A model generated the notes under the pieces. The model was given only the letters and a program-made list of their open reading frames with translations, had not been told where the DNA came from and made no database searches. 34,301 bases of DNA from Prevotella sp. (lineage in GTDB: Bacteria; Bacteroidota; Bacteroidia; Bacteroidales; Bacteroidaceae): positions 1-34,301 of the forward strand of contig JAFYZT010000030.1 in NCBI GenBank assembly GCA_017548605.1. The letters run 5' to 3'. Made by a program: the position numbers and the translations under genes. Below, piece after piece: positions 3,855-12,304 of this stretch. Position 1 is the first letter of the stretch, and each line of letters starts with the position of its first letter.

Positions 3855-4598
3855 TTATAATCCCAACGCCCTTCTTGCATCTTCCATGCCTTGCTGCATC
3901 TGTTTTCTTGCATCTTCCATACCTTGTTGCATCTGTTGACGCACCTCTTCTTGTGCCTGTTGCATTTGTTGACGTACATCTTCTTGAGCCTGTCTCATTT
4001 GACTGCTCACCTGTTGTTGGGCTCTTCTCATCTCTCTTCCAAAATCCCCGGCACTGGGAATACTCGGCACATCGCTTGATGTTTCGTCGTTATATTCTCC
4101 TTCATCTGACGAACTGCCGCTTTGGGCTGTTGACGGGCTATAATGTCTACCACCTGCTCCTTCATTCACTTTAAAAGTGCTCCCAATTTTAAATGTTTCA
4201 CCACCTTCTTCCCGTACATCAAACTTTATGGAAGCCGTTTCGTCAACGCCAAGAGCCATTATAGCTTTTAATTCATCGCCATCTAATATGTGGTCAGTTT
4301 CATCTTTATATATGACATCCCCCTTGTCGTCTCTAATTTCAATGGTAAATTGTGGTTCATATCCATTCGGCCAACCGTATTCAATCCCTTCGTGCCATGG
4401 CGCAGGTAATCCTTCCTTAATGCGTCTTATTTCAACATTGATGTCATGTCCTTTCAGCATATACTCCCTGTCAACAACTTCAAAATAGTCACTTAGGGGA
4501 CCAGTAATTTTAACTTGTGAAGGTTTCATTCCTCCTCCTCCGCATGATGATAAAACCATGGAGCCAATAATAATTGCAAAAAATGATAGTCTTTTCAT
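3855..4598 (-). CDS. lipoprotein with C-terminal 11-residue coiled-coil repeats
   Basis: Uncharacterised lipoprotein of 247 residues. The signal peptide ends in a lipobox (LSSC, C19) followed by GGGG. Residues about 27-145 form a beta-rich domain (VKITGPLSDYFEVVD through ASIKFDV) of a kind common in hypothetical Bacteroidales lipoproteins. A Ser/Glu-rich linker (about 150-180) leads to five tandem 11-residue repeats at 191-245, each of the form QQ-A/G-x-E-D/E-x-R-x-QM. The period of 11 predicts a straight, slightly right-handed coiled coil rather than a heptad coil. The repeats are also visible in the DNA as 33-bp units (3864-4028), so copy number may vary between strains. It lies 97 bases downstream of the zinc-ribbon gene on the same strand. 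Confidence 0.8.
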   Translation of the reverse strand: MKRLSFFAIIIGSMVLSSCGGGGMKPSQVKITGPLSDYFEVVDREYMLKGHDINVEIRRIKEGLPAPWHEGIEYGWPNGYEPQFTIEIRDDKGDVIYKDETDHILDGDELKAIMALGVDETASIKFDVREEGGETFKIGSTFKVNEGAGGRHYSPSTAQSGSSSDEGEYNDETSSDVPSIPSAGDFGREMRRAQQQVSSQMRQAQEDVRQQMQQAQEEVRQQMQQGMEDARKQMQQGMEDARRALGL

Positions 4599-6452: not shown

Positions 6453-6815
6453 TCATTCATCGTCGTCCTCCTCGTCATTGTCCTCCTCGTCATCACTATC
6501 AACGATACGGGTTCCTTTGGTCGCTCTTTCTAACCTTCGAATTTTTCTTTGGTTATTTCTTTTCTCCTTTCTTATTTCCTTCTTGTCTCTGCCGGAAAAG
6601 TCACATTCTTTTTCCAATTGTTCTAACTCGTCATTCAATGCGACACATTTTTTTGCTTTCGAATCGGAAACACTAATGGAGCCGGATTTCGTTATCTCTT
6701 CAAGTAACTCTATATAGTCCTCTTGAAGACTGACATATTTCCTTTCCTTGGATTGACATGCAACAATCATAATTGTAAATAATGTCGCTGTAAGTACATA
6801 AATAGTTTTTTTCAT
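6453..6815 (-). CDS. small lipoprotein with acidic tail
   Basis: Uncharacterised 120-residue lipoprotein. The signal peptide ends IVAC (C20). A helical, strongly charged middle (about 25-100; ELLEEI, LNDELEQLEKE, KKEIRKEKRNNQRKI) probably forms a coiled coil. The last 15 residues are almost all Asp/Glu. The ATG at 6815 is preferred over an upstream in-frame start at 6854 because it gives MKKTIYVL and a proper signal peptide. It is the first gene of the cluster running to 3522. The nearest exact promoter element lies far upstream at 7150-7157, which would give it a leader of about 330 bases. Confidence 0.75.
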   Translation of the reverse strand: MKKTIYVLTATLFTIMIVACQSKERKYVSLQEDYIELLEEITKSGSISVSDSKAKKCVALNDELEQLEKECDFSGRDKKEIRKEKRNNQRKIRRLERATKGTRIVDSDDEEDNDEEDDDE

Positions 6816-6859: not shown

Positions 6860-7145
6860 ATTCCACACAACGAAGGTGTGAGCCTTCCTTGCATCCTTTG
6901 CTGGAAGGTTCTGGAATACCCGTGAAAGAAAGAATGAAATCAGCTCACACCTGTAGGAATATATATGCCATCCATGCAACAGCATGGCAGCGCGATATAA
7001 ACGCTACAGGAGAAGCAGCCTTCAGACTTTTGCCCCTTTCACATGTATTTGCCGTAGCAAATCCATCATAAGAATTTTCCAGATTCTCCAGCGGGTTAAA
7101 GTTTTTAGCTCTCCTCGATGTCTGCTGCCCCTTTCTCAGGACGGC
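6860..7145 (-). ncRNA. candidate structured RNA or long 5' leader
   Basis: This minus-strand stretch follows an exact TAnnTTTG promoter and is dense in perfect stems. They are: ATTTGC/GCAAAT with a TACG loop (7047-7062); CCATGC/GCATGG with a 4-base loop (6972-6987); 7 bp pairing 6950-6956 with 7004-7010; 10 bp pairing 6874-6883 with 6943-6952; and inside the last, CCTTCC/GGAAGG (6883-6888 with 6903-6908). The 7-bp and 10-bp stems share bases 6950-6952, so they compete or stack. No T-run ends it, so it reads as a leader of the lipoprotein cluster (ATG 6815). It matches no riboswitch class I know. A free small RNA is the alternative. Confidence 0.45.
7059..7083. repeat. 25-bp direct repeat, copy 1
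   Basis: Begins AAATCCATCATAAGA and matches 9076-9100 in the same orientation at 23 of 25 positions. The two copies lie on either side of the AAA ATPase gene, about 2.0 kb apart. Copy 1 is inside the structured leader. Confidence 0.7.
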
Positions 7146-7149
7146 GGTA

Positions 7150-7157
7150 CAAAGATA
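7150..7157 (-). promoter_or_regulatory. -7 promoter element for the structured leader
   Basis: Minus-strand TATCTTTG, an exact TAnnTTTG match. Transcription would start near 7144, just before the run of stems. A second exact match, TATGTTTG, lies upstream at 7262-7269 (minus). Neither has a clear -33 TTTG. Confidence 0.55.
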
Positions 7158-7272
7158 GAGATTTTTCTTGAAACTGTCATCATCGTGAGCTGATTTTTTT
7201 CGGTTATAGTTGTGTTTGCGCACACAAGGGACACCATGTCCTTACGCGCCAATAGTTTCTGCAAACATACGT

Positions 7273-10507: not shown

Positions 10508-11059
10508 TTAGGAGTTAAGATGGATGAGGGTGATGCCTCCTTCTATGCCGCCGGTGTAACTGCCGATGTCCTTGCCCTGGCGGAAGAGGCGGCGGACGAT
10601 GAATGGTTGGCTGGCGACAATCATGGGCACGTCGAGCATATCGCCTACCATGAGTTTGCCGCCACTCACTTCCTCCACGCGGCAGAAACCATCAGACATG
10701 GTGGTCAGCACCACATGGCGGCGCGGCTCGTAATTGACGGTGATACGGGTGTTAGCAGGCAAGTCGGGAGGATAGAGGGCACCGTTGTCGCCGTCAATCT
10801 CGGAGTTCTTGCCCGCGGCGCTTTTGCAGAGCAGTCTCCAACTGCCATAGCCGAGATAGCGGGCTATGGTTTGGAACGTCGATTCGGTGGGCTTCACCTC
10901 CGGCAAGAGGCCGAACAGACGTTTGAGGGTGTTCACGCCGATACGTTCGCCGGTTCGCGCTTCGATGTCAAGGGCCAGGGCATCAAACTGTGAGGGGCGT
11001 GACAGGTCGCACGCCATGCGCTCACGGATGAGTTTTTGGATGTATGGGTCTAATATCAT
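10508..11059 (-). CDS. two-domain protein, probable DNA-binding, in AraC-kinase operon
   Basis: The 183-residue product has a helical N-terminal domain (about 1-75; LSRPSQFDALALDIE, GVNTLKRLFGLLP, STFQTIARYLGY) that looks like a helix-turn-helix module found in many Bacteroidales hypothetical proteins. The C-terminal domain (about 95-183) is beta-rich (TRITVNYEPRRHVVL, GFCRVEEV, VGDMLDV). No enzyme motif is seen. It starts with ATG 42 bases after the kinase stop and is the third gene of the AraC-kinase operon, so it is a candidate kinase target or co-regulator (inference). The gap to the next gene (10457-10507) has degenerate CTCC/AACTT repeats and no strong promoter, so transcription may run on into the FISUMP gene. 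Confidence 0.7.
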   Translation of the reverse strand: MILDPYIQKLIRERMACDLSRPSQFDALALDIEARTGERIGVNTLKRLFGLLPEVKPTESTFQTIARYLGYGSWRLLCKSAAGKNSEIDGDNGALYPPDLPANTRITVNYEPRRHVVLTTMSDGFCRVEEVSGGKLMVGDMLDVPMIVASQPFIVRRLFRQGKDIGSYTGGIEGGITLIHLNS

Positions 11060-11101: not shown

Positions 11102-12304
11102 TTATGGGGCACCCTGCATGTCTCTGTCACCGGCTTGTGGGGCCGACAACTTCAACCACACCATCGACTTGTCCACATTGTCGTCTATTGTGTAAACCTC
11201 CATTTCGGCACTGAACATGTATTCGTAAAGATTGTCGGACTCGGGAACGAGAATGCCTATATCGGTAATGGATCTGTCGACGTATGAGTCGTCCCTAATC
11301 TGTAGGCCCATCGATTTCGGCAGCGTCTGGATGCGGTTCCTAAACCAGTCGGTCGCCCCAGTTGTCAGGTTGTGAAGTACTACCGACACATAGTGGCCGA
11401 TTGTATTCGTGTGCGCACTCGACAGGTCGAGCCTTATCGTCCGGAATCTCGAACGCTCGGTATTCCAATCCGACGGACTGATGTCTGCCAAATTAGTGAA
11501 ACCGTCGTTGGTGCAGATTGCCGTGTTGTCGGCGGTGGAGTAGTCTTCTAACACCCACCATGAAAGGCCGCCGAGCAACAGCAGGAAGAGTAAGGCTGTC
11601 GTTGCCAGCCACGGGGAACGTGATTTCCTCATGGCTTTGGCCAGTTTGTCGACACTTTGGTATCTTTCGGCTGCGTCAGCACTGAGGCATCTGTTCACCA
11701 CAGTTTTGTTTCCGATGCCCAAGTCGCTGAAGATTCGTCCCAAGGAATAGATGTCGCTGGCGGGAGTCTTCTCCTCGTCGGGAGCGGAGTAGTCGGCTGT
11801 GCCGCCCGTGGTGAACGGGTAACTGTCTTGGTAGCAATATCCCAGGTCGATGAGTTTCACATGGCTGCCTATGCGCGTGATGAGGATATTGTCGGGCTTG
11901 AGGTCGAGATGGAGCACTTGGTGCTGATGGAGGTATGCCACGGCCGAGAGCAACTCGTCGGCAAACTGTCGCGCATGTTGCCTTTTCCTAAAGTAGCCAG
12001 GGTGCTGACGCAGGAATTCGGTCAGCGTCACGCCGTCCACATATTCCATGAGGAGCCAGTCGTCGTGACATTCCAGATAGCGCGGGATGTTGGGGTGGTC
12101 AAGTGGGAAACCCACCTCGAACTCCTTTTCCAATGCCTGACGGTGCCGCTCATCATGGGCGAAGGCGGGCAGCAACTGTTTCTTCAGCAACAGCCGTCCG
12201 TGCTTTCGCAGCAGGTAGCAGGCGCAGGTACCTCCGCTGGCCACGAAACGTTCTTCCTCGCGGGGCTCTTCTTCATGTGGTGATATGATGGATGGCTTCG
12301 TCAT
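11102..12304 (-). CDS. Hanks-type Ser/Thr protein kinase, membrane anchored
   Basis: Eukaryotic-like kinase of 400 residues. The kinase domain (about 18-225) shows a glycine loop (VASGGTCACYL, 21-31), a lysine pair K41/K42, catalytic loop HLDLKPDN (132-139, D134), DLG (153-155) in place of DFG, and SAPDE (173-177) in place of the usual APE. GGTADY precedes the latter, and DIYSLG (184-189) matches the D-x-x-SLG motif. One membrane segment (about 232-252) leads to an extracytoplasmic domain (about 253-400) with no recognised fold, presumably a sensor. The key catalytic residues are present, so activity is likely. Its ATG overlaps the TGA of the AraC gene by ATGA (12301-12304). The coupling suggests that kinase and regulator act in one pathway. 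Confidence 0.88.
   Translation of the reverse strand: MTKPSIISPHEEEPREEERFVASGGTCACYLLRKHGRLLLKKQLLPAFAHDERHRQALEKEFEVGFPLDHPNIPRYLECHDDWLLMEYVDGVTLTEFLRQHPGYFRKRQHARQFADELLSAVAYLHQHQVLHLDLKPDNILITRIGSHVKLIDLGYCYQDSYPFTTGGTADYSAPDEEKTPASDIYSLGRIFSDLGIGNKTVVNRCLSADAAERYQSVDKLAKAMRKSRSPWLATTALLFLLLLGGLSWWVLEDYSTADNTAICTNDGFTNLADISPSDWNTERSRFRTIRLDLSSAHTNTIGHYVSVVLHNLTTGATDWFRNRIQTLPKSMGLQIRDDSYVDRSITDIGILVPESDNLYEYMFSAEMEVYTIDDNVDKSMVWLKLSAPQAGDRDMQGAP

Follow-up and report, generated by a model that had tools for sequence, protein, structure and literature searches.

The minus strand of positions 6860 to 7157 in a 34,301-nt contig of Prevotella sp. (JAFYZT010000030.1, assembly GCA_017548605.1; this whole stretch is the window in what follows) carries a large structured RNA, also found before many unrelated genes in other Bacteroidota of the gut and rumen. 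By a modest degree, we favor its being a cis-acting leader of a non-Rfam family in which one hairpin (Z) would stop transcription, a central duplex (Y) would permit it, and an upstream segment (A) would block Z. Its conservation, covariation, sense-strand folding and position before genes are established here, as are the complementarity of A to segment B, one strand of Z, and the tendency of A to occur together with a further promoter element.

A first-pass annotation of the window had judged that known riboswitch classes do not fit this region, and the Rfam comparison that it recommended bears this out, returning zero family matches in the window. Rfam 15 (4227 families) gave no match at the RNA between positions 4000 and 10000 at E values up to 5, and none at the RNA when the whole window was searched at the gathering thresholds. 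Forty member loci, 20 searched at E values up to 0.1 and 20 at up to 0.5, likewise gave none at the RNA, and the window holds no tRNA or tmRNA. No description of the element occurs in the literature searched, which took in portions of PMC2864571, PMC7366714, PMC9723704, and PMC8040213 and did not extend to supplementary lists of candidate RNAs.

The recommended search of Prevotella found DNA matches in 30 of 150 genomes. GTDB contigs scanned with a sequence pattern returned 71 stretches, mostly labeled Prevotella, Prevotellaceae, or Bacteroidales and many from rumen, with a few labeled otherwise (e.g., an Erysipelothrix and an Anaerolineae MAG). Xylanibacter ruminicola D31d (L077), which can be cultured, is among the carriers. 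After removal of 12 that were cut or had no usable promoter, 5 that were irregular, and 3 that failed trimming, 51 pattern loci and the window formed a 52-row alignment (A2). Model R1, built from A2, found 2 copies in the window's own genome and members in 86 of 301 genomes of the family (17 of 30 genera), 22 of 295 of the order, and 3 of 395 of the phylum. Model R2, built from 28 diverse members, reached 103 of 295 genomes of the order (72 of 184 genera) and 37 of 395 of the phylum. The own genome is included in every tally, and copy numbers are lower bounds because few candidates were scored per genome. A third own-genome copy lies at C38:48446-48670 (58 bits); the gene after it (L239, 2051-2869) resembles by eye the first gene at L071 (710-1342). 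Viral contigs gave no exact match to the one pattern searched. A coding sequence was considered and is ruled out by indels that do not come in threes and by covarying stems. The annotation had named in advance confinement to one strain, lack of covariation, and a preserved reading frame as grounds for abandoning its proposal; we found conservation far beyond the strain, covarying pairs, and no sign of a reading frame. The parts of the element, in window coordinates, are as follows.

7262 to 7269, minus strand: possible distal −7 element TATGTTTG, at an unusual spacing of 73 nt from A's start
7184 to 7196, minus strand: segment A, 13 bp complementary to B
7150 to 7157, minus strand: proximal −7 element TATCTTTG
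7123 to 7147, minus strand: hairpin H1, with 8 of 8 pairs changed on both sides (52 rows)
7108 to 7116, minus strand: E, outer 5′ strand of hairpin X, the weakest helix (z −5.6 in 55 members, −2.9 in 13 new ones)
7093 to 7100, minus strand: F, inner 5′ strand of hairpin X (z −10.9 in 55 members, −4.5 in 13 new ones)
7072 to 7092, minus strand: S2a, comprising the P1 5′ strand (7086-7092) and conserved core (7072-7085), from covariation
7043 to 7066, minus strand: TACG hairpin, a lineage-specific insertion, from the alignment and inverted pairs
7036 to 7042, minus strand: P3 5′ strand, from covariation and alignment-free tests
7027 to 7036, minus strand: F′, partner of F, from alignment-free tests
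7009 to 7019, minus strand: E′, partner of E, from RNAalifold and alignment-free tests
6950 to 7010, minus strand: hairpin P4, from the 52-row structure
6941 to 6951, minus strand: B, partner of C or of A, from complementarity and alignment-free tests
6930 to 6939, minus strand: G, inner 5′ strand of hairpin Z, from alignment-free tests
6900 to 6928, minus strand: S2b, comprising P3′ (6922-6928), conserved core (6907-6921), and P1′ (6900-6907), from covariation
6892 to 6898, minus strand: G′, partner of G, from alignment-free tests
6875 to 6884, minus strand: C, 3′ strand of hairpin Z, from alignment-free tests
6863 to 6874, minus strand: tail after C, in which a local complement of C replaces the T tract of distant members
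6453 to 6815, minus strand: first downstream gene, lipoprotein-like by eye

Comparison of 31 diverse members suggests the order H1-E-F-S2a-F′-E′-P4-B-G-S2b-G′-C-pyrimidine tract-gene. The exact −7 element and the perfect inverted pairs of 6 to 10 bp on which the annotation had based its proposal are present. The pairs include one of 10 bp (6874-6883/6943-6952), two of 7 bp (6950-6956/7004-7010 and 6910-6916/7077-7083), and two of 6 bp (6900-6905/7087-7092 and 6972-6977/6982-6987), and bases 6950-6952 are indeed common to the 10-bp pair and the first 7-bp pair. The region holds 21 inverted pairs in total, and most of the short ones are plausible by chance. The TACG loop that it had seen is a 4-base loop on the minus strand (7053-7056) capping arms 7043-7052/7057-7066 that are 90% complementary; this hairpin occurs in only 2 of the 52 A2 rows (the window and L072) and is an insertion specific to their lineage. 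Over the whole element, the minus strand folds better than 200 of 200 shuffles (z −3.95), and the opposite strand also folds well (z −3.41) because the element is quasi-palindromic.

The covariation check proposed in the annotation found covarying pairs, both in the 52-row alignment and in alignment-free tests on 55 and 13 members. A 54-pair structure on A2 is paired in 94.4% of cells, and 29 of its pairs vary on both sides. Its covariation score of 0.291, compared to 0.036 to 0.071 for slid partners, was reached by 0 of 500 shuffles; the structure was drawn after the alignment had been viewed and is therefore at an advantage against the slid-partner controls. Against a tree-simulated null, the best four column pairs all fall in duplex Y (E = 0.000, 0.05, 0.44, and 0.90), so that only two are significant at an E value of 0.05. 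Among paired cells, 151 are G-U and 26 are A-C (44 of the G-U cells come from one near-constant pair), and the minus strand is therefore the folded strand. RNAalifold, given 15 sequences, picked X, P4, and B:C and missed Y.

In the alignment-free test, each member's own partner strand was compared with foreign partners, each pairing separately. A search set (A6) of 91 matches, 88 with both anchors and 87 kept, yielded 55 nonredundant members. The helices of Y scored highest (P1 z −22.1, P3 z −21.9), followed by G:G′ (−12.0), F:F′ (−10.9), B:C (−9.7), E:E′ (−5.6), and C:D (−5.3), with the controls F:G′ and P1:P3′ at −1.3 and −1.1. The pairing F′:G, initially meant as a control, reached −5.6. 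A set of 25 of 27 further matches (2 on the reverse strand were dropped) ranked the helices as the 55 members had; it included near-copies, three loci already in the first set (L214, L216, and L217), and F and E windows shifted by 2 nt. The test was then repeated with the windows used for the 55 members on 22 new members, 13 after dropping those more than 80% alike: P1 gave z −8.8, P3 −8.9, G:G′ −5.3, F:F′ −4.5, B:C −4.4, C:D −4.5, and E:E′ −2.9, with controls at −1.1, 0.1, and 1.0. F′:G was weak in both later sets (−1.9 in the 25 members, −1.8 in the 13), and the control F:G′, at −3.1 in the redundant 25-member set, fell to −1.1 and −1.6 in the new-member retest. The B match in A2 is partly by construction, since the search pattern fixed B, and B:C was judged on members found otherwise. 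Hairpins X and Z and duplex Y are thus each supported, E:E′ least, and the F′:G link was unconfirmed in new members.

Two folds are suggested by these helices. In the first, S2a would pair with S2b as the central duplex Y (P1, conserved core, and P3). In the second, hairpin X (E/F with F′/E′) would hold S2a in its loop and hairpin Z (B/G with G′/C) would hold S2b, followed in most distant members by a T-rich tract. The covariation of competing helices supports the fold switching suggested in the annotation, as a predicted switch; energy models favor one fold, Y, which they prefer by about 7 to 22 kcal/mol in all 14 members modeled. In three close members (the window, L107, and L063), the models leave Z absent even with Y forbidden. 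Mutual exclusion of Y and the X-plus-Z arrangement is something we infer, as X, Y, and Z have no common bases; the F′:G pairing, if real, would make it direct.

These same observations would suit a different structure, in which X, Y, and Z, all supported and free of common bases, coexist as one interlocked stable fold that yields mainly a terminated small RNA, with read-through by leakage. The tail after C is consistent with such termination in distant members. At least 7 T in 11 bases follow C in 51 of 62 distant members versus 6 of 20 of the window's clade, and a T run of at least 4 in 43 of 62 versus 1 of 20; the window itself has no T-rich tract of the distant kind. This count was made with a motif list on 82 members (4 rows that were duplicates or decayed and 2 lacking a motif were left out), an earlier count from the duplex ends having been uninformative. 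Even so, genes follow the RNA closely without a TAnnTTTG of their own, and a complete duplex joining two loops that are already closed would make a knot. We therefore favor alternative folds and regard the interlocked structure as improbable, although a short terminated RNA is possible as one product of the element.

The position of the RNA is constant. Counting frames on the RNA strand, 63 of 68 close loci (4 further loci were too short) have a co-directional frame beginning shortly after C, as do 37 of 39 distant loci shortly after the RNA, and TAnnTTTG occurs in only 1 of the 63 close-locus spacers. The annotation had left open a cis-acting leader or a free small RNA; a structured element of this kind is supported, and the leader is favored because co-directional genes start just after the RNA and the spacers rarely hold TAnnTTTG. 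In the window, the annotated downstream cluster stands by eye as far as lipoprotein-like and membrane genes are concerned, but its zinc ribbon was not found by Pfam in the 10 window proteins scanned (other small frames fell outside the scan). Among close first genes (58 of 63 scanned), 9 encode BspA-type LRR, 5 SRA, 3 CD225, 2 FtsK, and 2 LEM-3-type GIY-YIG domains. Distant first genes (36 of 37, a near-copy omitted and L177 represented by its next gene) include 4 LRR_5, 3 Zn_ribbon_3, and 3 TonB_C, and later genes (57 of 83) include 6 Zn_ribbon_3. A constant defense partner was rejected, as PADLOC matches are scattered (at most 5 of the same 58 close first genes). A constant upstream partner was also rejected: one helix-turn-helix cluster (by eye) occurs in 10 of 19 context loci, and other upstream genes vary. 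An rteR small RNA (RF04181; L238, 41-123) shares a 3-kb stretch with one member, suggesting that conjugative elements carry some of the family.

Of 52 close loci, 40 have a segment A upstream of the proximal −7. In 35 of these 40, TAnnTTTG occurs within 60 nt upstream of A, at 14 to 21 nt, with 1.4 expected from shuffles, compared to 1 of 12 close loci without A. The window has A, with its nearest TAnnTTTG 73 nt away and none within 45 nt of A. An inverted repeat, GGACATGGTGTCC, is visible by eye at window positions 7222-7236 (minus strand), between A and the possible distal −7. In all 9 close loci where B has C instead of T, A has G, and differences between A and B comprise four G-U and no A-C (co-change p = 2.6e-6, kinship ignored). 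Across the 55 diverse members, A:B complementarity gives z −8.4; a core of at least 9 bp is found in 32, the shortest cores lying within chance, and its sequence is quite different in L192, L174, L179, and L206. A clear A is missing in the other 23. The upstream element accompanies 18 of the 32 members with a core versus 1 of the 23 others.

It is conceivable that a single regulator binds A, B, and C as DNA sites, so that A is an operator, the B match reflects protein specificity, and the RNA fold is a separate matter. The three motifs do change together (as in L019, L020, and L027), helix-turn-helix genes lie near relatives, and repeats lie upstream of the distal element. However, the close-set A:B differences are of the G-U type (a small asymmetry), among 520 A:B core pairs 83 are G-U, and the parts of B matched by A and by C differ; we consider this explanation unlikely. 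Far less likely is that A and B, which are inverted copies, are the repeats of an invertible promoter. Recombinase-like genes (tyrosine or serine, by eye) do lie just upstream of the RNA in L172, L177, L176, and L183, but the repeats differ by G-U-type changes, pieces of single loci from the genus DNA search all lie on the same strand (0 inverted), and P1, P3, F:F′, and G:G′ covary independently.

Several features upstream of the element deserve mention. Direct repeats spaced by 10 bp (AAAAGGAC type) lie upstream of the distal element in many Prevotella loci, and repeats of 10-bp period (AAAAGGACAGAAAAGGAC and variants) occur in L061, L062, L068, L107, and other close loci. The latter sit just upstream of the distal promoter element, roughly 100 nt before the proximal −7, and their two half-sites vary together between loci. 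A helix-turn-helix gene, often with a kinase, is near many Prevotella members, and the pair is often directly upstream of the RNA. In the window, a small protein at 10508-11059 (minus strand) resembles the relatives' helix-turn-helix proteins by eye and adjoins a protein kinase (Pkinase) at 11102-12304 (minus strand). As a guess, the helix-turn-helix protein or kinase and the direct repeats control the distal promoter.

Returning to the leader with alternative folds, we propose that formation of Z would stop transcription and formation of Y would let it pass, and that a factor bound at the conserved core could shift the balance. Transcripts from the distal promoter would carry A, which may pair with B before C is made, preventing Z and causing read-through; proximal transcripts, without A, would depend on the switch. 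Our confidence is restrained because energy models favor Y and the F′:G test is weak. In the window's clade, where the T tract is mostly gone, control is therefore expected to be weaker or to act at another step. More tentatively, A may be a 5′ tag found only on transcripts from a separately controlled upstream promoter and complementary to the terminator strand B, so that promoter choice sets fold and read-through in a module reused before diverse accessory genes across the phylum.

The core (AATCTGGA..AATTC and GGGYA..CCAGARCC) is near constant while the flanking stems vary, and therefore something probably binds there. A riboswitch with a new aptamer, in which the core loops bind a small molecule or second messenger that stabilizes Y, with A:B secondary, is a reading that we take seriously without expecting it to be correct. 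Messenger-type riboswitches occur in several copies per genome before unrelated genes, as this RNA does. Yet the downstream genes share no common pathway, and A:B covariation is unexpected from a riboswitch alone.

With about a third of the order's sampled genomes (103/295) carrying it, often in several copies, a large structured RNA that Rfam lacks would close a considerable gap in Bacteroidota gene control. Its presence also points to possible common control of surface, envelope, and conflict-related genes. If the proposed role of the A tag holds, a built-in antisense segment would tie the choice of start site to folding, an arrangement not known to have a close precedent.

Among known Bacteroidetes RNAs, Rfam includes the motifs Flavo-1, Bacteroidales-1, Bacteroides-1, Bacteroid-trp, and 6S-flavo (listed in PMC2864571). 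These too are structured RNAs and come from the phylum of the new RNA; the loci scanned gave no match to any of them. The DUF805 RNA (RF03081) has matches at L159 1738-1803 and 2702-2770, the first adjoining the member directly downstream as a separate, nonoverlapping match. Transcription attenuators with competing terminator and antiterminator helices include trp-type leaders, the T-box, and transcriptional riboswitches. The new RNA resembles them in its leader position, its putatively competing helices, and the T-rich tract that follows a stem in most distant members. It differs from them in that a 60-nt strand of the competing duplex lies inside its terminator-like stem, it has the upstream tag A, and the tract is largely lost in the window's clade. 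Second-messenger riboswitches, such as the c-di-GMP types, differ from it in that the new RNA has another architecture, no Rfam match, and at most a hypothetical ligand, but they share with it multiple copies in a genome, placed before genes that are unrelated and often surface-related.
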